Assembly: GCA_937897665.1 (NCBI GenBank)
Contig: CALCPB010000019.1
Coordinates: 1-13,957 of the forward strand
Reading direction: 5' to 3'
DNA: 13,957 bases
DNA from: an uncultured Halomicronema sp.
GTDB taxonomy: Bacteria; Cyanobacteriota; Cyanobacteriia; Phormidesmidales; Phormidesmidaceae
Shown here piece by piece: positions 1-13,957 of this stretch; position 1 is the stretch's first letter, and each line of letters starts with the position of its first letter. The translations under genes were made by a program, and so were the position numbers. The notes below the pieces were generated by a model. It was not told the origin of the DNA. It saw only the letters and a list, made by a program, of their open reading frames with translations, and ran no database searches.

Positions 1-1272
1 CAGTCCATCGGCTTCCAGATTTTTCAAAGCCTGCCGTTCGGAGGCAAAGTAGTCATCAAAATCCTGGTCAAAGCGGAGGTGATATTTGGTCTCAATGGCT
101 GCTTTGGACAGTTCAAACTGACACATGAGCTCCATAATCACCGCGCGCCGCAGAATATCGTCGCGGCTGAGGGTGACGCCTCGTGCCAGGGGCAGCTGAT
201 GGGTATCCATCACGCGGTAAAAGTCTCGTAACTGCTTGTGATTCTGGACATAAACGTCGTGCAGCATGCTGATGGCCGTCATGCCAAAGGCCAGCAGATC
301 AGACTCGGGTTGGGTGGTATAGCCCTGGAAGTTGCGATGGAGCTGTCCAGCCTGTTGCGCCAGGGTCAGCTCATCATCGGGTTTAGCAAAGTGATCCATG
401 CCGATGAACTGGTAACCGTGGGAGGTGAGTTCATCCATGCTCAGATGAAAAATGTTGAGTTTTTCGGCTGGGGTGGGGAGTTGAGTCGGGTCAATATGCT
501 GCCGCTGGACGGGCTTGAGCCAGGGCACATAGGCAAAGTTAAACAGGGCGATGCGGTCTGGATCGAGCGCGATGGTTTTGCGAATGGTCTCTCGAAAAGT
601 CGCTGCGGTTTGGTAAGGCAAACCGTAAATTAGATCCACATTGATGCTGTCAAAGTCTGCTTCTCGCATCCAGGCCATGCCCTGAAACAGCATCTCCTCG
701 GGTTGAATGCGGTTAATCGCCGCCTGGACTTGGGGGTCAAAGTCTTGAATGCCAAAGCTAATGCGATTAAAGCCGAGCTGTTTTAACCCCAGCACATAGT
801 CGCGACTGAGCTGGCGGGGGTTGACCTCGATGGAAATTTTGGCATCCTTGGCAAACTGGAAATGCTGAGCCAGCGCCGTCCAAAGGCGTTCCACCTGGTT
901 TAGGGTCAGATAGTTGGGCGTGCCGCCACCCCAGTGCATCTGGTTGACTACGCGCCCTTGGGTGCGGGTGGCGACCTGCTCAATATTCTGGATGAGATAG
1001 TCGAGGTAGGGCTCTGCTGCCTGCCGCTGTTGGGTAATGATGGTGTTGCAGCCGCAAAAGTAGCAAGCGGTTTCACAAAAGGGAATGTGGCAATACAGGG
1101 AGAGCGGTGTCTGCTTGTAATTGCCAACGGCGATCGCCGTTTCAAAATCCGCGATCTGAAACCCGTCCGCCAGTTCTGTGGCGGGGGGATAGCTCGTGTA
1201 TCGCGGCAGCGGCTGATTGTATTTGTTGAGCAAGGCCGCATCAAATGTCGGTATTGAAGTCAGGGTTGTCAT
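1..1272 (-). CDS. hemN: Oxygen-independent coproporphyrinogen III oxidase, partial (C-terminus beyond window)
   Basis: Radical-SAM enzyme that decarboxylates coproporphyrinogen III to protoporphyrinogen IX without O2, replacing HemF in anoxia. I translated the minus strand from the ATG at 1272-1270; the frame stays open for 424 codons to base 1. HemN proteins are about 450-460 residues, so roughly the last 35 residues are missing. Visible marks: PRYTSYPPA near residues 23-31, and the cluster motif CHIPFCETACYFCGCN at 61-76, with C66, C70 and C73 as the expected 4Fe-4S ligands. The HWGGGTPNYL segment and the I(S/E)VNPR stretch are also typical. It lies 89 bp behind ho2 on the same strand, but an intrinsic terminator stands between them and no good Shine-Dalgarno is seen. 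In Synechocystis and Synechococcus 7002, hemN is co-induced with ho2 and chlAII at low oxygen by ChlR (established); chlAII is not in the window. Confidence 0.95.
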   Translation of the reverse strand, partial: MTTLTSIPTFDAALLNKYNQPLPRYTSYPPATELADGFQIADFETAIAVGNYKQTPLSLYCHIPFCETACYFCGCNTIITQQRQAAEPYLDYLIQNIEQVATRTQGRVVNQMHWGGGTPNYLTLNQVERLWTALAQHFQFAKDAKISIEVNPRQLSRDYVLGLKQLGFNRISFGIQDFDPQVQAAINRIQPEEMLFQGMAWMREADFDSINVDLIYGLPYQTAATFRETIRKTIALDPDRIALFNFAYVPWLKPVQRQHIDPTQLPTPAEKLNIFHLSMDELTSHGYQFIGMDHFAKPDDELTLAQQAGQLHRNFQGYTTQPESDLLAFGMTAISMLHDVYVQNHKQLRDFYRVMDTHQLPLARGVTLSRDDILRRAVIMELMCQFELSKAAIETKYHLRFDQDFDDYFASERQALKNLEADGL

Positions 1273-2527: not shown

Positions 2528-3277
2528 TCATCCCCTGGTCGGTAGGTCTGCTGTTTCGCAGTCTGGTTGCTGGGGATAGCTCTGGGGCATCACCGCATTT
2601 TTCAAGTTAGCTTGATCGAGCAAGGTGCCCGTCAGGTCAGCGCCCAGCAAATTCGCGTCTTCCAGATTAGCCCCGGTCAGATCGGCGTAACTAAGGTCAG
2701 CCCCTTGTAGATTTGCGCCACGCAGATCCGTCGACACCGTCCCCGGACGATAGTCGAGCCCTAAGTTGGCCCGACAGAGAATAGCCTGAGCTAAATTGGC
2801 CCCCTGTAGGTTGGCCCCACTCAAGCGCCCATAGCTTAAATCAACCTGTTGCAAGTTGGCCTGCGTCAGATTGGTTCGTGAGTCAGCCGTTGGGCGCAAG
2901 TCGGCCTCAAGCAGACAAGCCCCTGACAGATCAGCCCCTTGCAAGTTCGTGCCGCCTAGACTGGCTTTGAGCAGATTGGCCTCAACCAAGTGCGCGTGGC
3001 CCAGGTTAGCCCCACTCAGATCAACCTCGCGCAAACGGGCATGAGCCATCCTGGCCGCCCTCAAATCGCTGCCCCACAGAATTGATTCGCTCAAATCGCT
3101 GTGCTCAAAATTAGCTTGGCGAAAATGAGTTCGACCTAAACGAGATTGCCGCAAATCTGAGCGGCTGAAATTAATGTTGTTGAGCCTGAGCTGCAGTAGA
3201 TCACTCTCTAAAAGTCTCAACCCCGCAAAATCACGCTGGCCAGCGTTGTATCTTTCCTGAAGTTCTTTTCTATCCAT
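2528..3277 (-). CDS. Pentapeptide-repeat protein
   Basis: A 249-residue protein made almost wholly of A(D/N)LXX pentapeptides, for example GANLQGADLSYADLTGANL near residues 185-205. Such proteins fold as a right-handed quadrilateral beta-helix. The N-terminal 15 residues (MDRKELQERYNAGQR) are a charged cap, and the last 20 or so residues are non-repeat. Two short breaks interrupt the helix (around RPTADSR and LDYRPGTV) and may form loops. No signal peptide or membrane segment is seen, so it is probably cytoplasmic. Start ATG at 3277 follows AAGGA at about 11 nt. Cyanobacteria have many such genes, mostly of unknown role; the family gives no reaction. It is downstream of the cytochrome gene on the same strand with a 103-bp gap, so co-transcription is possible but not shown. 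Confidence 0.93.
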   Translation of the reverse strand: MDRKELQERYNAGQRDFAGLRLLESDLLQLRLNNINFSRSDLRQSRLGRTHFRQANFEHSDLSESILWGSDLRAARMAHARLREVDLSGANLGHAHLVEANLLKASLGGTNLQGADLSGACLLEADLRPTADSRTNLTQANLQQVDLSYGRLSGANLQGANLAQAILCRANLGLDYRPGTVSTDLRGANLQGADLSYADLTGANLEDANLLGADLTGTLLDQANLKNAVMPQSYPQQPDCETADLPTRG

Positions 3278-3380: not shown

Positions 3381-3989
3381 CTAAGAGGCGGAGATCGCGG
3401 CCTCTAACGCTTGTTTGACCTCGGGAATAAAGACCGTGTACATGCCCCGTAAATCGCCCACGTTAAAGTCATAGGCGAGATCTTGGGGATAGTTGTCTTT
3501 CACAAATTGGGGTAGATCGCCTTTGCCCCCGTGGCAGGCCAGACAGCTGGCTTCCACATTAATCCGACGGTAGTAGCGGGTGCCGGGCTCGCCATTGAGC
3601 GTTGCTGAAGCCCAAAAGCCCTGCAGATCGGCATCTTGCTCAAACTTGGCTAGGGCCATTTGGGCTTGGAGGGTATCGGGTTCATGAGCCGGGTTGCGAT
3701 ACTTCTTGGCCAATTGTTTAACCTGCCAACCGTTGTCTTGGCTCAACTGCATCGCTTTCATCCCCACCGGTTTGCAGACCTGTCGCATGGTTTCAGCGGT
3801 CGGCGGTGCAGTGGCCTCTTCGAGATAGGCTGCCAGCCCACTGCGCAGGGCGTCTAAATTTTCAATTTCCTGGACCGCTTTAGCGAGTTCGGTCGGTTCC
3901 GGTTGGGCTAGCGCGATCGCGGGCAGCCCCATGAGGCAGAAAATCACGAGGGATACACCGAGAACTAATCGAGAGAACACTCTCATCAT
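3381..3989 (-). CDS. Secreted DUF3365 / Tll0287-like c-type heme protein
   Basis: A 202-residue protein with an N-terminal signal peptide (basic start MMRVFSR, hydrophobic core, probable cleavage after AIALA near residue 28), so it acts in the thylakoid lumen or periplasm. A single CLACH heme-c motif is at 149-153. The architecture matches the cyanobacterial Tll0287 family, which has a PAS-like fold and His/Cys heme ligation; Cys72 in QVCKPVG is a candidate for the Cys ligand (inference). I chose the ATG at 3989 because AGGAG stands 7 nt before it; an upstream GTG at 4019 is in frame but would put extra residues before the signal peptide. It lies downstream of sqr on the same strand, which suggests a redox or sensing role linked to sulfide. 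The physiological function of the family is not established. Confidence 0.88.
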   Translation of the reverse strand: MMRVFSRLVLGVSLVIFCLMGLPAIALAQPEPTELAKAVQEIENLDALRSGLAAYLEEATAPPTAETMRQVCKPVGMKAMQLSQDNGWQVKQLAKKYRNPAHEPDTLQAQMALAKFEQDADLQGFWASATLNGEPGTRYYRRINVEASCLACHGGKGDLPQFVKDNYPQDLAYDFNVGDLRGMYTVFIPEVKQALEAAISAS

Positions 3990-4009
3990 GCACAGTCTCC
4001 TGAATGAGT

Positions 4010-4180
4010 TTAAGAGCACGCTTTCTTAGGTTTAATAGCCGCGAAAGACTGGGGACAGCGCACCCACAAATCGTGCAGTAATGCCGACAAATACCAACCC
4101 GGCGCCAGGCCCGCTGCTCCGACTGCTTTGAGGGCCGTCAATGTCTTGGATGAATTGGCTTGCTCAGAAGGAAGCGACAT
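4010..4180 (-). CDS. Possible 56-residue small protein between sqr and the cytochrome gene
   Basis: On the minus strand an ATG at 4180 opens a frame ending in TAA at 4010-4012. The product begins MSLPSEQANSSKTLTALKAV, has a moderately hydrophobic middle (VGAAGLAPGWYLSALL) and ends in a basic KPKKACS tail. AGGA abuts the ATG with almost no spacing, which is poor. It fills the gap between sqr and the cytochrome gene (46 bp after the sqr stop, 20 bp before the cytochrome ATG) with codon use like its neighbours. I do not recognise it; a single weak membrane helix is possible. It may be a real small gene of the sqr operon or chance. Confidence 0.35.
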   Translation of the reverse strand: MSLPSEQANSSKTLTALKAVGAAGLAPGWYLSALLHDLWVRCPQSFAAIKPKKACS

Positions 4181-4226: not shown

Positions 4227-5546
4227 TTAACTCGCTAGGGATTCTGAGCCAGAGGCTGCCGTTTTAGCCAGCGCGGAAACATCCTTCAGCAGTTGCAGCC
4301 CAAACAGAGTCCGGAGTCCCAACCGCTCGTACCAGGGCATCCCGACGCCAAAACGAATTTTCAGCATGAAATATTCTTCAAAAGCAGCTTTCACCCACAC
4401 GACCCAGGGCCCCCGCACCGCGTAGGAGTGTTTCCGCTTCCCGGTTTTGGGGTCGGGCAGTACCGGAGCGGCAATGTAGGCAATGCCCGTATTGCCAAAC
4501 TCAGCAAAACAGAGAGCCTCTAAAGTCGGCACTTGATGATGGGCTTTGCTCGCTTTGAGGTCAACGGCAATATTGTGGGCCGCAGCGGTTGCCATTGCTT
4601 CGGCCATTTGCACGCTTTTGGGGAGCCCAATCGGTACCGGAGTGACATCGGGCTGGGCCAATTTGACACTCACCCCGGCGGCGTAGATGTTGGCAAACTC
4701 GGGATGGCGTTGGGTGGGCAAAATGGGAATAAACCCCCTGTTATCACCGAGCCCAGGGACCTCTCGGATAAACTGCGCCCCCTGAAAGGCGGGCAAAATC
4801 ATGGCGTAATTAAAGGGCAACTGGCGGCCATCAGCCAGGGTCACGGCTTGGGACTGAATTGCGGTAATCGTGGCATTATCAATTACCTCAATCCTCCGTT
4901 CTTGCATGAGCTCGGCGGTCAGCTCTCGGGCTTGGCGTACCCCCGAGACGCCTAAATGTCCGGCGTAGGGTTCTGGGGTGACATAGGTGATTGGGACTTG
5001 ATCTCGCAATCCTCGACGGCGCAGTTCCTGATCGGCAATTAGGGCAAATTCATAGGCCGGGCCAAAGCACCCAGCACCTGGCGCGGCCCCCACCACCATC
5101 GGCCCAGGATTTTCGAGAAACGCCAGCCAGGCTTGACGGGCTTCGAGAGCATGGTCGGGGGTGCAGACAGAGTGGGTATAGCCGCCGTGGGGACCAATGC
5201 CGGGTACCCAGTCCCAGGCCAGGGACGCGCCGGTCGCAATGAGCAAATAGTCATAGGTGATCGCCGCCTGCCCCTCAATTGTCAGGCGCTGCTGGGTGGG
5301 GTCGAGGGCCGTCACCTTACCCGATACCCAATTGAGATTGTGACGTTGGGCGAGTCGAGCCAGGCCCAACTGCACATGCGCTAACGGCTTCAAATTGAAG
5401 GCAACCCGAATCAGCCCTGGAATAAAGGTGAATTCTGATTTCTCTGATACTAAGGTGACCGTATGCTCTGATGGCAGCAGATGCCGGAGTTCATAGGCGG
5501 CGGGCAATCCCCCTAATCCGGCCCCAATAACAACAACATTAGCCAT
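4227..5546 (-). CDS. sqr: Sulfide:quinone oxidoreductase
   Basis: FAD-dependent, membrane-associated enzyme oxidising H2S to polysulfide or a persulfide and reducing plastoquinone. The 439-residue product opens with the dinucleotide-binding GAGLGGLPAAYEL (8-20), has the ATG motif in LLIATGASL (101-109), and GCFGPAYEF at 159-167. The three redox cysteines expected of full SQRs are present: C128 (SVCTPDHA), C160 (GCFGP) and C346 (ALCFAEFGNTG), matching the layout in Aquifex and Rhodobacter enzymes. The conserved IYAAGV segment is at 287-292, and the C-terminal 50 residues form the amphipathic membrane-docking part. An in-frame TGA stands four codons before the ATG at 5546, so the start is fixed; GGAGG is 13 nt upstream, longer than usual. 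It is divergent from the nine-gene sulfur block. Other FAD-disulfide reductases lack this cysteine set. Confidence 0.92.
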   Translation of the reverse strand: MANVVVIGAGLGGLPAAYELRHLLPSEHTVTLVSEKSEFTFIPGLIRVAFNLKPLAHVQLGLARLAQRHNLNWVSGKVTALDPTQQRLTIEGQAAITYDYLLIATGASLAWDWVPGIGPHGGYTHSVCTPDHALEARQAWLAFLENPGPMVVGAAPGAGCFGPAYEFALIADQELRRRGLRDQVPITYVTPEPYAGHLGVSGVRQARELTAELMQERRIEVIDNATITAIQSQAVTLADGRQLPFNYAMILPAFQGAQFIREVPGLGDNRGFIPILPTQRHPEFANIYAAGVSVKLAQPDVTPVPIGLPKSVQMAEAMATAAAHNIAVDLKASKAHHQVPTLEALCFAEFGNTGIAYIAAPVLPDPKTGKRKHSYAVRGPWVVWVKAAFEEYFMLKIRFGVGMPWYERLGLRTLFGLQLLKDVSALAKTAASGSESLAS

Positions 5547-5717
5547 AAAACGCTTTCATCCTCCATCTTTTTTATTCGGATTTTTTATCAGGTGTTTGTT
5601 AATCCCTCGGGGCAGCACAGCTCTTTAAACGTCTGAGCCAACCAATCGGACAATACGTCAACAATTTGAGGAAGCTATGAAGCCCTTCTTTGTAGAACGA
5701 CTAGGTAGCCCTTAAGC

Positions 5718-5737
5718 AACTATACTACTAAGTAGTT
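5718..5737. promoter_or_regulatory. Inverted repeat in the sqr/DUF302 spacer, candidate operator
   Basis: AACTA (5718-5722) and TAGTT (5733-5737) are inverted with a 10-bp spacer; overlapping it, ACTACT-A-AGTAGT (5724-5736) is another perfect inverted repeat. The 18-bp core 5719-5736 shares 13 of 18 positions with 2312-2329 in the ho2 palindrome, including the ACTA-N10-TAGT frame. On the minus strand 5724-5719 reads TATAGT, a candidate -10 for sqr 173 nt from its start, as in the ho2 promoter. Confidence 0.5.
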
Positions 5738-5876
5738 ATATGACGTTATGAATAGAGTAAAATCTATGTATTTACCCTGAAGATTGCTTTCTCGTCAGGC
5801 GACTAAAAACAAGCGATCGCTGAAGTATTGTATTACTATCTGGTCATAAAATGAATAATGAATTGATTGGCCAGGA

Positions 5877-5933
5877 GCCTGTCTGTGTCTGACGGCGATC
5901 TTTATCGCCTGATTGACAGGCAGTTTCCCTGTC
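5877..5933 (+). promoter_or_regulatory. Leader with mutually exclusive hairpins
   Basis: GCCTGTC (5877-5883) can pair with GACAGGC (5915-5921), enclosing the inner stem GGCGAT/ATCGCC (5894-5899/5904-5909). GACAGG (5915-5920) can instead pair with CCTGTC (5928-5933). The two folds exclude each other and end 33 nt before the DUF302 start, near its ribosome site. The form recalls attenuator or riboswitch expression platforms, but no poly-U tract follows and I do not recognise a known riboswitch. Confidence 0.4.
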
Positions 5934-5966
5934 TCAAGACCCATGAAACAAGCGGAGTCATGATTG

Positions 5967-6386
5967 ATGTATCACTTTAGTAAGGTTGTTAATGTCTCAT
6001 TTGAAGAGGCCCTAGAGCAGGTGACGGCGTCGCTGCGAGCAGAGGGGCTGGGGGTGCTGACTGAAATTGATGTGCAAGCCGCCTTTCAGAAAAAGCTCGG
6101 CAAAGACTTTCGGAATTACAAAATTCTCGGGGCCTGCCATCCCGGCATCGCCTACAACATGATTCAAGCGGATGACAAAGCGGGGGCGCTTTACCCCTGC
6201 AATGTGGTGGTCCAAGAGCATGAAGATGGCCGCGTCGAGGTCTCAGCAGTCGATCCGCTGATGATGTTTTTGATGGTGCATACTCCTGAGGCCAAGGCGA
6301 TCGCCCTAGAGGCCAGTGAAAAGATGCAGGCTGTTATCGATCACTTGCCCGCCGCCGCTACGCCTGAACTGGCTGGCGTGGCTTGA
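5967..6386 (+). CDS. DUF302 family protein, first gene of the sulfur block
   Basis: A 139-residue soluble protein without signal or membrane segment. It carries the family's two hallmarks: GACHP at 55-59 within KILGACHPGIA, and LYPCNVVVQE at 75-84; C57, H58 and C78 are the residues most likely to matter. The start is ATG 5967 with GGAG 9 nt upstream; a TTG at 5964 is in frame but has worse spacing. DUF302 has no established biochemical function. Family members often sit beside sulfur, rhodanese and metal-stress genes, and the Cys/His pair would suit sulfur-species or metal binding (inference). It is the first gene after the divergent control region, so it should be the first one made when the block is induced. 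Confidence 0.88.
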   Translation: MYHFSKVVNVSFEEALEQVTASLRAEGLGVLTEIDVQAAFQKKLGKDFRNYKILGACHPGIAYNMIQADDKAGALYPCNVVVQEHEDGRVEVSAVDPLMMFLMVHTPEAKAIALEASEKMQAVIDHLPAAATPELAGVA

Positions 6387-6434
6387 GTTTTGCCCAAGTC
6401 CTTGAATGCTGAGTTTTGGAACCTTGAGTTCCTT

Positions 6435-6462
6435 GGATGTGTAGCCATTACTCGCTACATCC
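6435..6462 (+). other. Stem-loop between DUF302 and DUF2892 genes
   Basis: GGATG-(TG)-TAGC at 6435-6445 pairs with GCTACATCC at 6454-6462: nine pairs with a 2-nt bulge and an 8-nt loop. No U tract follows directly. It may be an intercistronic processing or stability element. Confidence 0.35.
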
Positions 6463-6527
6463 ACACATTGCCCTTAATTTAATTTTGACTAATTCAATTT
6501 CGATCGATTTTTTTGGAGATAAAACCC

Positions 6528-6743
6528 ATGTTTAACAATGTCGGTACTACTGATCGTTTAGTGCGATTAATCGCCGCCGCGATTCTGCTTTATTTAAGCT
6601 TGCAGACCTATGCTGGCTCAGCCTTGGGAATTGGGCTCGCAATCGCTGGAGGTGTTGCCCTACTGACGGGGCTGATAGGTTCCTGTGCTCTGTATAGATT
6701 GCTCGGCCTGAATACCCGCAAGTCCAACCAATCCTTGCCCTAA
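6528..6743 (+). CDS. DUF2892 (YgaP-like) small inner-membrane protein
   Basis: A 71-residue protein with an N-terminal FNNVGTTDRLVRL and two hydrophobic helices (about 11-29 and 31-51), ending in LTGLIGSCALYRLLGLNT at 46-63. This is the DUF2892 pattern, also found as the membrane part of YgaP-type rhodaneses. The family's late Cys is present at C53. ATG 6528 has GGAG 9 nt upstream; a TTG at 6513 is in frame but less likely. In YgaP the two helices tether a rhodanese domain to the membrane; here a separate rhodanese is encoded two genes downstream, so the two might act together (inference). Confidence 0.85.
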   Translation: MFNNVGTTDRLVRLIAAAILLYLSLQTYAGSALGIGLAIAGGVALLTGLIGSCALYRLLGLNTRKSNQSLP

Positions 6744-7043
6744 AGTCAGGCGACTTTATCCAGGGCCATTACACCGCAATAGAGACTTCCAGGTCGAGTG
6801 AGCGATCGCTTCCTCTGACTCACGGCCTGGATTCCTAGTTGCTTTCTTCTGCAGTAGTCGCTCCCAAGATCAGTAGTGACTACACCTTGGTAGCCTCTTA
6901 GTTTCAGACCCTGAATTAATTTTTCAGGGTCTACAGGACTCACCCAGCGCTGCGATCTGGGTGAGTTCCAAAAACTGTTTTTTGAGAGAACTATCAAACA
7001 ATTTCTTTCTGCACTGTCATTGAAATGACTGGAGTTAATTTGA
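6744..7043 (+). other. Structured 300-bp spacer before the Rieske gene
   Basis: Three stem-loops follow each other. The first is imperfect: TCCAGG-GTGAG paired with CTCAC-CCTGGA (6788-6831), with a HIP1 octamer in the loop. The second has perfect 10-bp arms AGACCCTGAA/TTCAGGGTCT (6906-6932, 7-nt loop). The third has perfect 10-bp arms ACTCACCCAG/CTGGGTGAGT (6938-6966, 9-nt loop), with a T6 run about 13 nt further on. An antisense open frame here has no recognisable domain and overlaps the Rieske start. The spacer probably separates the first two genes from a second transcription unit. Confidence 0.5.
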
Positions 7044-7580
7044 ATGATGGACAATGCCATTCCGTATGAAAACCCGTCGTTGTCACGACGGCAATTGCTT
7101 AACTTTTTGACTGGGGCAACGGTAGCGGCCACTGCCGGATCGGCACTGTATCCAATTGCTCAATTTTTAGTGCCGCCTCGGGAGGTCACCGAAGGAGGTG
7201 GCATCCTCGCTAAAGACAAACTGGGCAATCCCATTCCAGCTAGTCAAATACTGACTGAACCGCCTGGAACTCGTGCCCTGATTGCCGGATTAACAAGTGA
7301 ACCGACTTATCTGACGATCCACATGGATGGTTCCCTATCCTCCAGGGGGATTGTCGATAACTGCACGCACCTGGGCTGCACCTTTCCCTGGAACTCGAAC
7401 GATCAGCAGTTTCAATGCCCTTGTCATGGATCGCTCTACGATCCGGAGGGCAACGTCGTGCGAGGCCCAGCGCCGCTCCCCCTCAAGCTGGTGCATGTAG
7501 CAGTCAAAGATGACGCCATCTGGATTTATCCCTGGAATGAACTTGATCCACGGACGGGAGAACCACCGTGGTGGGTTTAA
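7044..7580 (+). CDS. petC: Rieske 2Fe-2S protein of cytochrome b6f type (PetC paralogue)
   Basis: Iron-sulfur subunit that takes electrons from plastoquinol and passes them to cytochrome f. The 178-residue protein has a twin-arginine-like N-terminus (SRRQLLNFLTG, 14-24) and one membrane helix (about 20-42). The 2Fe-2S ligands are in CTHLGC (107-112) and CPCHGS (125-130): C107, H109, C125, H128, with C112 and C127 as the disulfide pair. The ending DPRTGEPPWWV is typical of cyanobacterial PetC. ATG 7044 has GGAG 9 nt upstream; ATG 7047 is an alternative. Main petC genes are normally followed by petA; here neither petA nor any other b6f gene is present, so this is probably an alternative PetC serving sulfide-derived quinol oxidation (inference). 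Confidence 0.92.
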   Translation: MMDNAIPYENPSLSRRQLLNFLTGATVAATAGSALYPIAQFLVPPREVTEGGGILAKDKLGNPIPASQILTEPPGTRALIAGLTSEPTYLTIHMDGSLSSRGIVDNCTHLGCTFPWNSNDQQFQCPCHGSLYDPEGNVVRGPAPLPLKLVHVAVKDDAIWIYPWNELDPRTGEPPWWV

Positions 7581-7632
7581 CCGAATTATGTTCCTGGCCC
7601 TCAATTAACCTCACCAAGCGACCCAACTCCCC

Positions 7633-8040
7633 ATGGCATCTGTATCGTCATCCCGGTCTCCTCTCGTTGACCTATCTCCAGAAGAATTTGTTCAATCGGC
7701 CCAACCATTATGTCTCATTGATGTCCGGAGCCGGTTGGAATACCATCAGTTCCACGCTCCTGACGCGATCAACCTCAGCCTGCCGCGTATTTTGATCGGT
7801 CGCATGCCCATTCTGCACAACTCCTTACCGCGGTGGCTTCGGCAACTTCCCCAAGAGACTGCGATCGCGGTGATTTGTCTGACGGCGCATCGCAGCCCGA
7901 TCGCGGCCCAAGCCCTGCATGAAATGGGCTTTAGCCAGATTTTCAATATTTCCGGGGGCATGATGGCCTGGAAAAAAGCCGGTCTCCCGACCCAGTCAGG
8001 GCCGTCCCAAAATTCTGTTCACGAACATCACATGAGCTAG
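7633..8040 (+). CDS. Single-domain rhodanese (sulfurtransferase)
   Basis: Sulfane-sulfur carrier or transferase, for example moving sulfur between persulfides, glutathione and thiosulfate. The 135-residue protein has the rhodanese pattern LIDVRSRLEYHQFHAPDAINL (28-48), the active-site loop CLTAHRS (82-88) with catalytic Cys82 and Arg87, and the late NISGGMMAWKKAGLP (105-119). No signal peptide is seen; cytoplasmic. The ATG at 7633 is preceded by no clear Shine-Dalgarno, and the gap from the Rieske stop is 52 bp. Next to SQR and persulfide dioxygenase, the likely job is handling the persulfide product. The His-rich end (HEHHMS) is unusual but may be incidental. Confidence 0.92.
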   Translation: MASVSSSRSPLVDLSPEEFVQSAQPLCLIDVRSRLEYHQFHAPDAINLSLPRILIGRMPILHNSLPRWLRQLPQETAIAVICLTAHRSPIAAQALHEMGFSQIFNISGGMMAWKKAGLPTQSGPSQNSVHEHHMS

Positions 8041-8109
8041 GACGCGTCATCAATTAATCCCAGAAGCCTTTGAAGCGAAGCATTACCGCGCCCGCATTCA
8101 CTCAACAGG

Positions 8110-8168
8110 CTAGGGGCTGTCGTTCCTTTGCTGCAAGGATTTGACCGCTGAATAATGACAGACCCTAG
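8110..8168 (+). other. Nested inverted repeat before the transporter gene
   Basis: CTAGGGGCTGTC (8110-8121) and GACAGACCCTAG (8157-8168) are inverted repeats matching at 11 of 12 positions. They enclose a smaller stem TCCTT/AAGGA (8124-8139). It lies about 130 nt before the transporter start, in the 259-bp gap after the rhodanese gene, and would be part of an operon or leader transcript. Confidence 0.4.
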
Positions 8169-8299
8169 TCTGCTCATCACTTCGAGTGACTGCAGTGGCA
8201 CTGGCATGGCCGCGATCGCCGCTACCGCCCATCAGCCCTGGCGATTGCGATACTGCTCGACCAACACACATTCCCACATCATTCGAGGCAACTATCACT

Positions 8300-9295
8300 A
8301 TGTGGAAAATATTGGGTTCTCTGCAAAAAAATCTAGTTTGGTCAATTCCTGCCTTTATGGTGGCAGGAATTTTGGTCGGTGCCCTGACCGACCCCTCGGC
8401 CCTGAAATCACTGATCATTCCCCTCACCTTCCTCATGGTGTATCCCATGATGATTAACCTGCAGATTCAGCAGGTGTTGTCTGGGGGAGATTTAAAGGTG
8501 CAGTTAATCACCCAGCTGATTAATTTTGGCGTTGTGCCATTCTTTGCCTATGGCATGGGGCGACTGTTTTTTGCCGATCGCCCCTTGGTCGCGCTGGGTT
8601 TGCTGCTGGCCTCGCTCTTACCCACCAGCGGCATGACTATTTCCTGGACGGGCTTTGCCAGAGGCAATCTCAGTGCCGCTATCAAAATGACGGTGATTGG
8701 GCTGATTCTGGGCTCCGTTGCGACCCCGTTTTATGCCAAGTGGCTCATGGGCACTGTCGTCGATATTCCATTAGCCAGCATCTTTCGACAGATTGTGATC
8801 ATCGTCTTCCTACCAATGATTCTGGGGTTTGTCACCCGCATTTCCTTGATTCGAATCGTGGGGGCCGACAAGTACCACAAAAGCCTGAAGCAAAAGTTTC
8901 CGGCCTTTTCCACCATTGGCGTTTTGGGCATCGTGTTTGTGGCGATGGCGTTGAAGGCGAAAGACATCCTGGCCAGTCCCACCATCTTGCTTTTATTCTT
9001 AGTGCCGCTGGCGATCTTATATGCGGGGAATTTTCTCCTCAGTACCTTGGTCGGTAAGTTCTTTTTTGCACGGGGGGATGCGATCGCGCTGGTCTACGGC
9101 ACGGTGATGCGGAATTTGTCGATTGCTTTAGCGATCGCCATGACAGCCTTTGGCAACGAGCAAGGGTCTGAAATTGCCTTGATTATTGCCATGGCCTACA
9201 TCATTCAGGTGCAGGCGGCGGCCTGGTATGTCCGCTGCACTGACCGCATCTTTAGTCCGGCCTCACGCGAGATGGCATTAATCGAGGACAAGTAA
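8300..9295 (+). CDS. BASS/ACR3-superfamily membrane transporter
   Basis: A 331-residue protein with about ten predicted membrane helices of the bile acid:sodium symporter / arsenite permease superfamily; hallmarks are LLPTSGMTISW (106-116) and the late YGTVMRNLSIALAIA (266-280). Family members move organic anions or arsenite, thiolated species included. The ACR3 signature Cys in the fourth helix (PCT-type motif) is replaced by PTSG here, so arsenite export is doubtful. I chose ATG 8300 because the family's N-terminus (MWKILGSLQKN) starts there and GAGG lies 11 nt upstream; the longer frame from 8186 adds 38 non-family residues. The stop TAA shares one base with the next ATG at 9295, so the two genes are translationally coupled. 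The substrate could be a sulfur oxyanion (inference). Confidence 0.85.
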   Translation: MWKILGSLQKNLVWSIPAFMVAGILVGALTDPSALKSLIIPLTFLMVYPMMINLQIQQVLSGGDLKVQLITQLINFGVVPFFAYGMGRLFFADRPLVALGLLLASLLPTSGMTISWTGFARGNLSAAIKMTVIGLILGSVATPFYAKWLMGTVVDIPLASIFRQIVIIVFLPMILGFVTRISLIRIVGADKYHKSLKQKFPAFSTIGVLGIVFVAMALKAKDILASPTILLLFLVPLAILYAGNFLLSTLVGKFFFARGDAIALVYGTVMRNLSIALAIAMTAFGNEQGSEIALIIAMAYIIQVQAAAWYVRCTDRIFSPASREMALIEDK

Positions 9296-9720
9296 TGACG
9301 GAATTTAATGGGATACCGGCTCTGGCGGGCGGATTGCTGATTGGCCTTAGCGCCACGATGCTCTTGGCCTTTAACGGTCGCATTGCCGGAATTAGCGGCA
9401 TTGTTAGCGGCAGTTTGGGCTGGGCGGCAGATCGGCAGTGGCGGCGGCTGTTTCTGGTAGGCATGGTGCTGGGGGGGCTCCTCTATGAATATGGTCTGGC
9501 GGCCAGCCCAACTCCGACGCCCACGGCAGGCGGTTGGCCCCTGGTACTAGGAGGCTTTTTAGTGGGTTTTGGCACCCGTCTCGGCAATGGCTGCACCAGC
9601 GGTCACGGTGTCTGCGGTTTGGGGCGACTATCGCTGCGATCGCTGGCTGCCGTAATTACCTTCTTGAGCACCGCCATGGTGACGGTGTATCTCACTCGTC
9701 ACGTTTTGATGCTGGGTTAA
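9295..9720 (+). CDS. YeeE/YedE family half-transporter, first subunit
   Basis: A 141-residue protein with about four membrane helices and the signature GTRLGNGCTSGHGVCG at 93-108; C100 and C107 are the conserved cysteines. YeeE/YedE (TsuA-type) proteins take up thiosulfate through such cysteines in the larger single-chain form (about 350 residues). Here the protein is half-size and pairs with the next gene. Its ATG overlaps the transporter stop by one base, and the partner's ATG follows its stop by 14 bp. Role in sulfur species transport is by family; direction and exact substrate are not known. Confidence 0.9.
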   Translation: MTEFNGIPALAGGLLIGLSATMLLAFNGRIAGISGIVSGSLGWAADRQWRRLFLVGMVLGGLLYEYGLAASPTPTPTAGGWPLVLGGFLVGFGTRLGNGCTSGHGVCGLGRLSLRSLAAVITFLSTAMVTVYLTRHVLMLG

Positions 9721-9734
9721 CAGGAGCTATCACT

Positions 9735-10184
9735 ATGAACCAAAAAATTATCGCGTTGCTGTCTGGTTTACTGTTTGGGCTGGGTCTGGGACTTTCTCAG
9801 ATGATCGATCGCCAGCGAGTCTTAGGGTTTTTGGATGTCGCGGGAACCTGGGATCCGACTCTGTTATTTGTGCTGGGCGGTGCCGTCGCCGTGACGGCGG
9901 TGGCCTTTCGGTTTGTGTTGCGCCGCGATCGCCCCCTTTTCGGCAGTCGTTTCTGCTTGCCCAGCCGCCGAGATATTGACGGCCCTTTACTCGCAGGCGC
10001 GGCCATCTTTGGCATCGGCTGGGGCATCTCTGGCTACTGCCCCGGCCCCGGCATGGTCGCTCTGGTGCTGGTGAGTTGGCAGCCGCTGGTATTTGTGGCG
10101 GCGCTGATTGCTGGTATGGCCGCCTATCAGGGCTATCAGTCTGCAACTCAGTCATCTAACCGGGCAACCCAGTCCAACTCTTAA
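9735..10184 (+). CDS. YeeE/YedE family half-transporter, second subunit (DUF6691-like)
   Basis: A 149-residue protein with about four helices, beginning MNQKIIALLSGLLFGLGLGL. The signature GIGWGISGYCPGPG is at 93-106, with conserved C102; C74 is in the loop after the second helix. Two-gene YeeE/YedE transporters put the GCTSGHG motif in the first protein and the GYCPGPG motif in the second, as here. ATG 9735 has AGGAG 8 nt upstream; a longer frame from 9534 runs within the preceding gene and is a shadow. The C-terminal 18 residues are a Gln/Ser/Asn-rich tail outside the membrane. Expected to form a heteromer with the preceding protein. Confidence 0.9.
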   Translation: MNQKIIALLSGLLFGLGLGLSQMIDRQRVLGFLDVAGTWDPTLLFVLGGAVAVTAVAFRFVLRRDRPLFGSRFCLPSRRDIDGPLLAGAAIFGIGWGISGYCPGPGMVALVLVSWQPLVFVAALIAGMAAYQGYQSATQSSNRATQSNS

Positions 10185-10301
10185 GCTACCGCGACCGCAA
10201 AAGCGCGAGGGCACAGAGACGCCCCAGAAAAAAGTAAACCTGAGGACCGTTCTGAGGGACGAGTCCCTAGTCAACCATTGCCAAAGTCAAGGAGAGAAAT
10301 C

Positions 10302-11003
10302 GTGTTATTTAGACAGTTGTTTGACGCTGAAACCAGCACCTACACCTATTTGATTGCCGATCCGCAGACCCGAGCAGCGATTCTGGTGGATTCGGTATTA
10401 GAGCAGGTGGAGCGGGATCAGCAATTGCTCCAAGAGCTCGGCCTGACGCTGCGATTTTGTTTGGAAACCCACATTCACGCCGACCACATCACCGGGACGG
10501 GGCAGCTCCGCGAACTAACCGGCTGTGAAGGTATTGTGCCGGCGAATGCCCCGGCCCAATGCGCCAACCGCACTATTCAGCATGGTGAACGGTTGCGGGT
10601 TGGGGATGTCGAGATCCAAGCCATTGAAACCAACGGTCATACCGATAGCCACATGGCCTATCTGGTCAACGGCACCCATCTATTAACCGGTGATGCCTTG
10701 TTTATTCGCGGCTGTGGGCGCACCGACTTTCAGAGTGGCGATGCGGGCACGCTCTATGACCGAGTAACGCAGCGTCTGTTGACGTTGCCAGAGACGGTGC
10801 TCGTGTATCCGGCCCACGACTACCGGGGGCACACCGTCTCCACCATTGGGGAAGAGAAGCGGGTCAATTCTCGTTTTGTGGGACGGACGCGGGACGAGTT
10901 TATTGCTTTTATGGACAGCCTCGACTTGCCTAATCCAAAAAAGATTATGGAAGCGGTGCCGGCCAATGAGCACTGTGGCAATATCGCCAGTCTAGTGAGC
11001 TAA
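10302..11003 (+). CDS. Persulfide dioxygenase (ETHE1-like MBL-fold)
   Basis: Non-heme iron enzyme that oxidises glutathione persulfide to sulfite and glutathione. The 233-residue protein has the metallo-beta-lactamase motif THIHADH at 56-62, H113 in NGHTDSH, D131 in LTGDALFIRGCGRTDF, and H172 in YPAHDYRGH; spacing H57-H113 (56 residues) equals that in human ETHE1. The GRTDF segment is specific to ETHE1/persulfide dioxygenases rather than glyoxalase II. The start is GTG at 10302 with GGAG 7 nt upstream, since MLFRQLFDAETSTYTYLIAD is the family's usual N-terminus; the first in-frame alternative at 10278 (TTG) is less likely. The sulfite exporter gene follows by 7 bp, which fits sulfite as product. 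Confidence 0.93.
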   Translation: MLFRQLFDAETSTYTYLIADPQTRAAILVDSVLEQVERDQQLLQELGLTLRFCLETHIHADHITGTGQLRELTGCEGIVPANAPAQCANRTIQHGERLRVGDVEIQAIETNGHTDSHMAYLVNGTHLLTGDALFIRGCGRTDFQSGDAGTLYDRVTQRLLTLPETVLVYPAHDYRGHTVSTIGEEKRVNSRFVGRTRDEFIAFMDSLDLPNPKKIMEAVPANEHCGNIASLVS

Positions 11004-11010
11004 GGCCAAC

Positions 11011-11817
11011 ATGTTGATTACTATCGTTGGCCATTTTTTGGCCGTGGGGATTGGCCTGAGCCTTGGGCTGATTGGTGGTGGCGGCTCGATCTTGGCAGTG
11101 CCGGTGTTGATCTACGTGATGGGTGTGGGATCGAAAGCGGCGATCGCCATGAGTTTGGCGATCGTTGGCACCGTCAGTCTGGTAGGCGCCATCCCCCATG
11201 GGGTACAGGGCCACGTCAATCTCAAAACAGCCCTCGTCTTTACCCCCGCCGCCATGGTTGGGGCCTACCTCGGAGCCCGTCTTACGGCCCTGCCTTTCAT
11301 CACTGATACGATGCAGCTCGTGGCATTTGGCGTGATCATGGTACTGGCCAGTCTGCTGATGATTCGCCAAAGTGGTCAACCCGCTCACCGTGACTCCGTC
11401 CCCCAATCGCGGCCGCGATCGCCCCGACTATCATTTTGCCTCACGAAAATGCTGCATCAGTATCCCTGGCTGGCCATCCCCGCAGAAGGGTTAGCGGTGG
11501 GCACCCTGACCGGATTTGTCGGGGTCGGCGGCGGCTTCCTGATCATTCCGGCTCTGGTGCTGCTAGGGGGCCTGCCGATGAAAGAGGCGATCGGCACCTC
11601 TCTTCTGATCATTGCGGCTAAATCAACAATGGGCTTTGTGGGCTATCTCGATCAGGTGGCGGTTGATTGGGCGCTGGTGAGTTCTTTCACCATAGCGGCA
11701 AGTGCAGGAACCTTAGTGGGTTCCTATCTGACCCAATTCATCCATGCCAAACGGCTGCAACAAGGATTCGGGTACTTTGTTTTGGCCGTGTGTGGCTTTG
11801 TGCTGATGCAACGATAG
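11011..11817 (+). CDS. TauE/SafE family sulfite exporter
   Basis: A 268-residue membrane protein with about eight helices in two related halves. Each half carries the glycine-rich motif: [20 protein letters not shown] (15-34) and [20 protein letters not shown] (164-183). The family exports sulfite, sulfoacetate and related organosulfonates. The ATG is 7 bp behind the persulfide dioxygenase stop, with AAGG in the gap as ribosome site, so translation is probably coupled. Given the neighbour, sulfite made from persulfide is the likely substrate (inference). A short linker at about 121-143 (Pro/Ser/Arg-rich) joins the halves. Confidence 0.9.
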
Positions 11818-12272: not shown

Positions 12273-12286
12273 TTACGCGAAGGTGA
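12125..12286 (+). CDS. Possible 53-residue small ORF or gene remnant
   Basis: ATG at 12125 to TGA at 12286; product MPKTIPDLGGWTSMAALQRY followed by a charged, helix-prone end (WGLSEEKKAEAIAG, later RDRDLVRVRAEFTRR). AAGG is 7 nt upstream. Its last 14 bases overlap the 3' end of the metallophosphoesterase gene on the other strand. I do not recognise a family. It may be a small DNA-binding-like protein or a fragment; low confidence. Confidence 0.25.
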   Translation: MPKTIPDLGGWTSMAALQRYWGLSEEKKAEAIAGSSNFRDRDLVRVRAEFTRR

Positions 12287-13957
12287 GCTCGGCAATCGCA
12301 CCGCTACCATTTAGCGTGACGACTAGTTGACTGACGCCATCAACATTGATGTCAGTGGTGCCTAGTTCACCGTCAGCGGTCTCGACGATGGCAGTACTGC
12401 CCAAAGGTACACCATTCAGGTCAATGGCTTCGATGGTGCCACCTTCCTCACTGTCGAGAACATCGAGGCTCGCGATGTTCATGGCCTCATCAAAGGTGAA
12501 TACGAACGTGCCCCCTGACGCATTGTCATCAGGATTAGTGCTGTCGCCGTCTTCAGACAAGATCAATACATTCCCCAGGGCATCACTCGCCAGATCGGTA
12601 TCGCCCCCAGTAGGATTCGCAGTATCGAAAATCATCGCCTCCAGGCCATGGGTGGTCACGGTCAGACCTGTAAGCTGATCGGTCACCACCGTTCCAGCGG
12701 TGAGTTCCGAACCTTCAAAATCAATGTTTTTTGAGGGTCGCGATGACGCATCGGTGACTTCCCCGACGGCATTGGTCTCTAGGGTGATTTCATCGCCATA
12801 AACCCGACGTTCCGTATCGATCAACTCATAGTTCGCATCCAGAACAGGGAAACTGTAAACCGGCGTAAATGTGATCTGGGCGCCCCCATCCGGACCATCA
12901 AGCCGTTCGAGATTGACCTCCAGGTGACCGTAGTGTTTACCGCCTTCGATGATTTGCGGTACACCATCCACCTCCGCCCACAACTCCGGTTCGTCTTGAT
13001 CCGCAGTCCACTGGCTAAAGGGGTTGTAGTTTAAGAGCTCTCCCGCTGCATCGGTGCGTTGCCCGCGCATGCCATCGCCCGCCACGCCCACGTCATAGTA
13101 GTAGACGCCGATGCCGTCGTTATTCTCATCGACAAAGCTACGCTCAAACATCTCGCTGTGCCCAGAGAAGACGGCGGCGACCCCATACTCCTCAAACAGC
13201 GGATGGTACTGGCGCATCGGCGTTCCCCCTTGCCCTGAGGAATCCTCATGGTTCATAGGCAGGCCATGGGTGCCGCTAGAGTAAGGCGCGTGGTGCCACT
13301 GAGCAAAGATGATTTGTCCAGACTCTCGGGCCTCTTCAAGCTGCTCGATCACCCAATTCCATTGCGGGCTACCGGGGTTAAAGTCGGCTAAATCAGTGCC
13401 TCCCGCCGCTTCATACTCTTCGCGAGTGAAATTTTGTTGAGTGTCCGTTCCCGGCTCGGTAAATTCCTGACCGCTCACTTGGGGCGGCTGCCCTTCGCCG
13501 CCGTAATTGTCGCGGCTGTCATCAGGTTCGCCGTTGGAACTATCCAGCGTCAAAATGGTAATGGGGCCATAATCAATGCGGTAATAGTTATCTTGATGTT
13601 CTGGCGTCCCGTTTTCAGGCGCATCAAAGTAGACGTCGAACTTTTCACGACCAAACAAAGGCCCAAACCGCCCATCGTCATCAAAGCCGTAGCCGCCATT
13701 CAGGGCACCAAAGTTTTCCCAGTTGCCCAAAGCCGGTAGTAGAGCGTATTCCGATAGGCCACTGTCGAATTCCCCGGCGTTGTGGCGGAAGAACTCATCC
13801 CAACCGGGCTGATAGCCTCCCCCTTGCATCAAATCTCCCGGCATCACCAGAAAGTCAGGGTTGCGGCTGTTGATAATCTCCAGATTTTCGCGATACCCCA
13901 CCGTTTCAGTCAGGGGATAGTTGAGGCGATCGCCGGCAACACCCAGGTTCTCAGCCC
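12273..13957 (-). CDS. Metallophosphoesterase with C-terminal surface domain, 5' end outside window
   Basis: The frame is open from the right edge to the TAA at 12273-12275 (561 full codons); a GTG at 13901 is not the start, because codons upstream keep the family pattern. Calcineurin-like phosphatase motifs visible: MPGDLMQ, LGNWENFG, QWHHAPYSSG and FSGHSEMFER; the first DxH motif lies outside the window. Compared with the usual GNHE and GHxH motifs, this protein has GNWE and GHSE, so two common His positions differ. The last 150 residues or so, starting near KNIDFEGSELTAG, are an acidic beta-rich domain (IFDTANPTGGDTDLAS, LILSEDGDS, GSGAIAELTF) common in secreted and surface cyanobacterial proteins. 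Overall acidic, Asp/Glu-rich composition suits export. Substrate unknown; not evidently linked to the sulfur genes. Confidence 0.85.
   Translation of the reverse strand, partial: AENLGVAGDRLNYPLTETVGYRENLEIINSRNPDFLVMPGDLMQGGGYQPGWDEFFRHNAGEFDSGLSEYALLPALGNWENFGALNGGYGFDDDGRFGPLFGREKFDVYFDAPENGTPEHQDNYYRIDYGPITILTLDSSNGEPDDSRDNYGGEGQPPQVSGQEFTEPGTDTQQNFTREEYEAAGGTDLADFNPGSPQWNWVIEQLEEARESGQIIFAQWHHAPYSSGTHGLPMNHEDSSGQGGTPMRQYHPLFEEYGVAAVFSGHSEMFERSFVDENNDGIGVYYYDVGVAGDGMRGQRTDAAGELLNYNPFSQWTADQDEPELWAEVDGVPQIIEGGKHYGHLEVNLERLDGPDGGAQITFTPVYSFPVLDANYELIDTERRVYGDEITLETNAVGEVTDASSRPSKNIDFEGSELTAGTVVTDQLTGLTVTTHGLEAMIFDTANPTGGDTDLASDALGNVLILSEDGDSTNPDDNASGGTFVFTFDEAMNIASLDVLDSEEGGTIEAIDLNGVPLGSTAIVETADGELGTTDINVDGVSQLVVTLNGSGAIAELTFA

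Follow-up and report, generated by a model that had tools for sequence, protein, structure and literature searches.

In Synechococcus sp. PCC 7002, SQR (sulfide:quinone oxidoreductase) and PDO (persulfide dioxygenase) oxidize sulfide to sulfite and thiosulfate (PMC7042703), and in metagenome-assembled genomes (MAGs) of Thermostichales, petC2 flanks the type I sqr, with low-oxygen electron transport as the proposed role (PMC11304991). Acaryochloris carries a microoxic DUF2892-petC-rhodanese-psbA1 cluster, and Synechocystis a psbA1-slr1184-slr1185 set (PMC5295598). Other bacteria carry clusters of yedE1E2 and pdo that have rhodanese, SQR, and TauE as neighbors (Agrobacterium blh, PmpAB; PMC10812762). 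The sqr operon of Synechocystis 6803 (suo genes) contains a DUF302 gene and an ArsR regulator, and the arsR beside sqr has been called its likely regulator (PMC5061849). Here, we describe a 13,957-bp cyanobacterial contig on which an SQR gene faces a block of nine genes, with two copies of an 18-bp palindrome, TATAACTA-NN-TAGTTATA, in the gap between them. The gene content, protein families, key residues, linkage in other genomes, and palindrome positions, all observed directly, make it probable that the locus is a sulfide/low-oxygen photosynthesis island under one operator.

The island resembles the PCC 7002 system in pairing a type I SQR with PDO in a cyanobacterium; however, the PCC 7002 gene numbers (G0075/A2866) do not suggest linkage, and the accessible parts of PMC7042703 mention neither PetC2 nor a YedE pair nor the palindrome. 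The Thermostichales MAGs have no PDO, and neither the DUF302-BASS-Tll0287 core nor an operator is described for them in the relevant section of PMC11304991. The adjoining DUF2892, PetC, and rhodanese genes are shared with the low-oxygen-induced Acaryochloris/Synechocystis set, whose partner is psbA1, whereas that in the window is SQR. The two-part YedE and PDO, with rhodanese, SQR, and TauE nearby, recall the yedE1E2-pdo clusters, but the pair in the window sits behind a cyanobacterial PetC2 block, on a contig that has no ArsR. The Synechocystis sqr operon likewise has a DUF302 gene but contains a chromate/arsenite transporter, in contrast to the PetC2, Tll0287, and BASS of the window. The initial annotation had called the combination possibly undescribed for cyanobacteria. 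This is not supported for SQR with PDO (PMC7042703), petC2 beside sqr (PMC11304991), DUF2892-petC-rhodanese-psbA1 (PMC5295598), or, in other bacteria, yedE1E2 with pdo (PMC10812762), all previously published, and the sulfide-oxidation chemistry itself is not new in cyanobacteria. In the open-licence literature, to which the search was confined, neither the palindrome nor a linkage of SQR with BASS or with Tll0287 was found described.

The window is the entire contig C19, taken from a draft genome of 5.2 Mb (1047 contigs, 90.3% complete). The minus strand encodes hemN, heme oxygenase (HO), a pentapeptide-repeat protein, a Tll0287-type protein, and SQR; the plus-strand block runs DUF302, YgaP-TM (DUF2892), Rieske, rhodanese, BASS/SBF, two YedE halves, dioxygenase, and TauE. 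The features, with their best scores, are as follows.

1-1272, minus strand: hemN, oxygen-independent coproporphyrinogen III oxidase (TIGR00538, 626.5 bits vs a cut-off of 324.95), open at the contig end
1362-2126, minus strand: heme oxygenase, HO2 group (PF01126, 252.5 bits)
2308-2333, no strand: overlapping palindrome pair, 2308-2325 (21.8 bits) and 2316-2333 (23.9 bits), outside the matrix-building set, 182 bp before the heme oxygenase start
2528-3277, minus strand: pentapeptide-repeat protein, on the SQR strand, beyond the coordinates of the initial annotation
3381-4019, minus strand: Tll0287-type c-heme protein (PF11845, 101.6 bits; PDB 5b82, 186 bits), with CxxCH (CLACH) at residue 159
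4227-5546, minus strand: SQR (3sz0, 330 bits), with Cys 128, 160, and 346
5723-5740, no strand: palindrome in the SQR/DUF302 gap (23.5 bits), one of the 29 matrix sites, 177 bp upstream of SQR and 227 bp upstream of DUF302
5831-5848, no strand: second, weaker palindrome in the same gap (16.4 bits), outside the matrix-building set
5967-6386, plus strand: DUF302 protein (PF03625, 87.9 bits)
6528-6743, plus strand: YgaP-TM (DUF2892) protein (PF11127, 66.7 bits); 6528 is the likely better start
7044-7580, plus strand: PetC2, alternative Rieske of cytochrome b6f (NF045928, 287.9 bits vs a cut-off of 250; PetC2 clade, 100/100)
7633-8040, plus strand: single-domain rhodanese with Cys82 (PF00581, 58.2 bits)
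8300-9295, plus strand: BASS/SBF-family transporter (PF01758, 91.3 bits; bile-acid-family relatives in PDB); 8300 is the likely better start
9295-9720, plus strand: YedE1-like half (PF04143, 25.7 bits, slightly below the cut-off of 27); its start overlaps the BASS stop (junction TAATG)
9735-10184, plus strand: YedE2-like half (PF20398, DUF6691, 148.7 bits)
10302-11003, plus strand: candidate ETHE1-like PDO (4ysb, 268 bits; ETHE1 4chl, 214; glyoxalase II 1qh3, 63)
11011-11817, plus strand: TauE/SafE-family exporter (PF01925, 152.9 bits)
12273-13901, minus strand: calcineurin-like phosphoesterase (metallophosphatase domain), located after the island, with nothing here that ties it to the island

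All ten genes named in the initial annotation, SQR and the nine facing it, are open reading frames (ORFs) at the positions given there, with matching families, and its sulfide-oxidation module in divergent arrangement is supported by these assignments. A chimeric join at the BASS/YedE border was rejected, because the BASS stop and the first YedE start overlap and the G+C content, 0.47-0.58 across the window, does not change abruptly at this point. Scans of the window found no RNA element at the Rfam gathering threshold and no tRNA. Counts of sigma-70 promoters (2 vs 6.7 in shuffles) and terminators (12 vs 12.3) do not exceed those in shuffles, so these scans give no help on operon limits.

The gene set is more than a chance assembly, judging by its recurrence around SQR in other cyanobacteria. 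Genes lying up to 10.5 kb from SQR were counted in 56 cyanobacterial loci (the window included) and in 59 other SQR loci. One selection step kept 80 of 568 relatives, 21 of them cyanobacterial by title, and the loci may include one species more than once. The 56 loci contain Tll0287 (21 loci), PetC2 (18), ArsR_s1 (15), SBF (14), psbA, DUF302, and ArsR_s2 (13 each), DUF2892 (12), PDO (11), a close rhodanese (10), TauE (7), YedE halves and hemN (3 each), and HO and AcsF (2 each). At the thresholds used, the 59 other loci contain DUF302 twice, ArsR_s2 three times, and none of the remaining families; weaker matches to Tll0287, rhodanese, TauE, and PDO do exist there, and those to Tll0287 (32-35%) include L089, L113, L117, and L132. 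The recurring neighbors are the Tll0287-type heme protein, DUF302, PetC2, and BASS. BASS/SBF is present in 12 of 35 genomes with SQR vs 1 of 20 without it. No single neighbor is found in most loci, and the island is therefore modular. In locus L067 (genome G174), SQR and SBF are each matched only in part, about 2 kb apart, as if decaying jointly.

The order seen in the window, which the initial annotation had proposed to seek in other cyanobacteria, recurs in its core. Spirulinaceae SM2_1_0 (L071) has Tll0287-SQR/DUF302-DUF2892-PetC2-rhodanese-SBF, with fragmented rhodanese and DUF2892 matches; CCP5 (L072) has the same order minus the Tll0287 end, where its contig stops; genome G215 (L034) is without DUF2892 and rhodanese, and L068 is without DUF302. 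The sulfite-making half does not follow: YedE, PDO, and TauE were not matched in the 5.8 to 8.4 kb beyond SBF in L034, L071, and L072, the three close relatives with sequence there, so that YedE-PDO-TauE looks like a local add-on in the window genome, and for this half the initial annotation is not supported as stated. PDO as such is widespread, with 27 of 33 genomes having it, and none was found in the G215 genome at 1e-60. Oscillatoriaceae Prado104 (L076) has SQR, PetC2, the YedE pair, and PDO together in a different order. At the other end, the unit does not stop at 4227, the limit set initially, but extends to Tll0287 and, by the common palindrome, to heme oxygenase-hemN. Proteins 49-54% identical to the pentapeptide-repeat protein encoded at 2528-3277 are found near SQR in L041, L048, L052, L054, and L055.

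The palindrome, which the initial annotation did not note, was first noticed in 19 sqr upstream regions. Requiring exact 7-base arms gave little, and the consensus was then read by eye from the output of that search, which makes 18 of the 53 loci non-blind in the test. When 13 or more of the 16 fixed positions had to match within 500 bp before sqr, the palindrome is found in 33 of 53 loci vs 0.5% in shuffles, namely in 16 of the 18 loci already inspected and in 17 of the 35 not inspected when the consensus was read; L046, L056, and L067 were left out of this count, as their alignments do not start at SQR residues 1-3. A binomial figure was set aside, since it takes related loci to be independent. 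A matrix was built from 29 of these 33 sites, repeats excluded; at a score of 15 bits or more and a distance of up to 400 bp, it places a site before 15 of 28 PetC2, 11 of 19 PDO, and 10 of 13 DUF302 genes. In these gene-upstream counts, divergent pairs share sites, only loci fetched by that stage are included, and L169 to L172 and L190 were picked because an ArsR adjoins PDO. Among the controls, none of 20 HO1 and none of 20 PetC1 loci had the palindrome.

The window contains four sites of at least 15 bits, vs 0.07 expected from 30 shuffles: two in the SQR/DUF302 gap, which make the shared divergent control region of the initial annotation plausible, and the overlapping pair before heme oxygenase-hemN. 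With at most two mismatches to the consensus, the site at 5723-5740 is the single match in the 5.2-Mb genome; G215 and G085 likewise have a single match, at sqr. A looser pattern has eight matches in the window genome, four of them in the window and the other four scoring 6.0 to 11.5 bits, vs six matches for the reversed control. In the complete genome G286, from another family, where the genes are scattered, five of ten matches score at least 19.6 bits and the other five score 6.9 to 11.2. The strong sites precede SQR, Tll0287, DUF302-SBF, AcsF-like/HO2-hemN, and a GAPDH-like gene. This last site (L266 2603-2620; G286:C1:2192602; 20.7 bits) lies 69 bp before its gene, a possible further regulon member. 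The window's own PetC and PDO genes have no site within 400 bp, so their control would have to come from the sites in front of DUF302.

Several observations weigh against a single operator for the whole set. The palindrome falls below 13 of 16 bases in 20 of the 53 sqr upstream regions, and among 731 further ORFs in the SQR loci, 30 are likewise preceded by a site, in a survey that used 300-bp upstream regions and hence gave lower counts for PetC (6 of 17), PDO (6 of 11), and ArsR_s2 (4 of 13). Few sites lie directly before SBF (1 of 15), rhodanese (2 of 17), Tll0287 (1 of 22), and TauE (1 of 15), as expected if these genes are carried in operons, which by itself is no support. Sites at HO2 are weaker and confined to 7 of 17 loci, with none at HO2 in G170, a genome of the same genus. 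Moreover, four of the counted loci (L153, L155, L163, and L164) had been picked for having a site, the looser pattern was drawn after the window sites were known, and reversed control patterns are equally frequent genome-wide in many genomes. The evidence for the palindrome lies in its positions, not in raw genome-wide counts.

Eight of the 30 other ORFs are psbA-like by their N termini (one, in L083, confirmed by Pfam), and one is AcsF-like. These targets bear on the main rival explanation, that the palindrome is the site of ChlR, a MarR-type low-oxygen activator, and that its known regulon (chlAII-ho-hemN, psbA1) has been extended to the sulfide genes, the signal being oxygen rather than sulfide. 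ChlR activates tetrapyrrole genes and binds the psbA1 promoter; HO and hemN belong to its regulon as they do to the island, but the excerpts of that paper list none of sqr, pdo, and petC2 among its targets (PMC4500134). The palindrome precedes heme oxygenase-hemN in the window, the eight psbA-like ORFs near SQR, and AcsF/HO2 in some genomes, including two of six that have no SQR. However, of the HO2 loci, the main ChlR targets, only 7 of 17 have a site, with lower scores than those at sqr, whereas PDO (11 of 19, at 15 bits) and ArsR_s2 promoters (13 of 21, at 11 bits) do have sites. On balance, this explanation is unlikely. Palindromes near SQR also precede Fe-S proteins in L043 (10676-11383), L056 (3113-3814), L064 (4720-5427), and L076 (8713-9420), of which the first is a 4Fe-4S dicluster protein by Pfam and the group of four HdrC-like by eye. 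The same is true of nitronate-monooxygenase-like ORFs in L048 (13226-14320; Pfam), L052 (6072-7166), and L055 (12483-13577), which are divergent from or close to psbA-like ORFs.

Two groups of ArsR proteins accompany the SQR loci, ArsR_s1 downstream of sqr and ArsR_s2 often divergent from PDO; one ArsR_s2 is that of Nodosilinea nodulosa PCC 7104 (L088 9144-9485). The aligned ArsR_s2 sequences share a helix QANxSKHL and one invariant Cys in 17 of 17, with a second Cys at an LC/CL position in 15 of 17; the 18 ArsR_s1 sequences have QAN, PAN, or QGN at the corresponding helix position. Sites of at least 11 bits are found at 13 of 21 ArsR_s2 promoters. No site precedes any of 19 ArsR_s1 genes, as expected for a gene that directly follows sqr. 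The most likely candidate for the binder is an ArsR with the recognition helix QANxSKHL. ArsR_s2 was found in ten of ten genomes inspected (G000, G008, G045, G054, G129, G170, G172, G213, G215, and G286), all of them palindrome-carrying and with part of their HTH_5 matches read; this check could have come out otherwise, but the group may be general in cyanobacteria. It also counts against the assignment that this contig has no ArsR and that the two s2-like frames of the window genome lie elsewhere: L186 has no site, and L188, a 90-residue frame, has a 12.8-bit site. The latter (2019-2291; G000:C313) follows a cytochrome bd-like frame, as read from sequence. ArsR of the L186/L034 type was rejected as island regulator (different gene setting, no site), as was the label SqrR or BigR for ArsR_s2, whose profile gives only generic ArsR scores.

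The Rieske protein, listed initially as an addition to the module, is PetC2 of cytochrome b6f by family model and phylogeny. It passes the NCBIfam b6f model and has the cluster motifs CTHLGC at 107 and CPCHGS at 125. A tree of 48 PetC proteins separates 20 canonical ones (PetC1, chosen by identity) from 28 others with split support of 100/100. All 18 PetC proteins in the 56 cyanobacterial SQR loci belong to the second clade, PetC2, and PetC1 is never found there; with this recurrent linkage, a chance neighborhood was rejected. No petA was found in this genome bin, so the canonical petC may be absent from this draft. The exclusive presence of PetC2 bears on a simpler explanation, constitutive detoxification, in which SQR, PDO, and TauE clear sulfide in oxic cells, the neighbors are unrelated, and the palindromes belong to some other regulator. 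SQR of PCC 7002 indeed acts aerobically and removes endogenous sulfide (PMC7042703), but a PetC2-only association (18 of 18), the recurrent core around SQR, and the presence of HO2, HemN, and PetC2, all low-oxygen forms, make this explanation improbable. The heme oxygenase of the window falls in the HO2 group (53-73% identical), separate from HO1 (43-51%).

By whole-length homology and its three cysteines, the product of 4227-5546 is a sulfide:quinone oxidoreductase, with quinone reduction as the predicted activity. Its top relatives among solved structures are SQRs (3sz0 aligns across residues 2-423), and it is 50-69% identical to other cyanobacterial SQRs. It has no cysteines besides C128, C160, and C346, all of which align with cysteines of 3sz0, the Acidithiobacillus ferrooxidans enzyme. 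It is provisionally labelled type I-like, in keeping with PMC7042703 and PMC11304991. The residues listed in the initial annotation for SQR, rhodanese (C82), and the dioxygenase are intact, the dioxygenase numbering (H57/H59/D61/H62, H113, D131, and H172) being correct if the start is GTG at 10302. The dioxygenase is ETHE1-like, with predicted oxidation of glutathione persulfide: it is nearer to ETHE1/PDO (4ysb, 4chl) than to glyoxalase II, and the latter identity was rejected on bit scores (214 for 4chl vs 63 for 1qh3). It passed no NCBIfam cut-off (gloB, 111.1 of 200.8; Blh, 97 of 625). H57, H113, and D131, the metal-ligand pattern of ETHE1-type PDO, are all present. The two YedE-like genes are adjacent and half-size, a layout that would fit a YedE1E2/PmpAB sulfur transporter, although the first half scores slightly below its family cut-off. 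Tll0287 is a c-heme Cache domain protein (PMC12889525), and the second Cys matching Tll0287 by alignment is also present in the window protein.

The BASS protein is the basis of another alternative, an arsenic-linked cluster in which it exports arsenite and ArsR senses arsenic. The Synechocystis sqr operon, with its DUF302 gene, is tied to arsenic metabolism (PMC5061849), and the BASS protein has a weak acr3 match (79.7 bits). However, this score is far below the acr3 cut-off (282.8), for which the ACR3 identity was rejected, and the PDB relatives are bile-acid-family transporters. From the start at 8300, the protein has a single Cys, near the C-terminal end (residue 351 of the longer frame). 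The Cys essential in ACR3 is thus missing. An arsenic role for the cluster is therefore very improbable.

For the favored reading, an island under one operator, the following course of events is proposed, in which catalysis, co-transcription, induction, the direction of control, and the palindrome binder are all inferred. A rise of sulfide, or of sulfane sulfur made from it, would cause the repressor to leave TATAACTA-NN-TAGTTATA, freeing the divergent SQR/DUF302 promoter and that of heme oxygenase-hemN. SQR would pass electrons from sulfide to plastoquinone and on through PetC2-b6f to photosystem I, with PetC2 occupying the position of the usual Rieske protein in that complex. Heme oxygenase and HemN would sustain bilin and heme synthesis at low oxygen, and the Tll0287-type heme protein might be a periplasmic redox partner or sensor. 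Rhodanese and the YedE pair would process sulfane sulfur in the form of glutathione persulfide, which, in the window genome, PDO would turn into sulfite for export by TauE. Since PDO and heme oxygenase require O2, the conditions that suit the full set are microoxic or mixed oxygenic/sulfidic rather than strictly anoxic. In support of the scheme, microoxic conditions in Acaryochloris raise AcsF together with a PetC and a heme oxygenase (PMC5295598). A point against it comes from PCC 7002, where polysulfide lowered sqr while pdo, rhod, and tauE went up (PMC12466478), which a simple one-signal co-induction model does not explain.

The palindrome bears on how cyanobacteria switch to sulfide-driven photosynthesis. 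As a tentative proposal, which we consider somewhat less than an even prospect, cyanobacteria might share a conserved "sulfide mode" switch, in which a sulfane-sulfur-responsive ArsR family acts on one palindromic operator, swaps in PetC2 and an alternative D1, brings in SQR together with its own heme protein and BASS carrier, and activates persulfide disposal and low-oxygen tetrapyrrole enzymes. If the palindrome marks sqr, petC2, pdo, DUF302-BASS, and some low-oxygen genes, such a switch would be directly testable by binding and reporter assays. The Tll0287 type and the SQR-linked BASS carrier would thereby gain a physiological setting.

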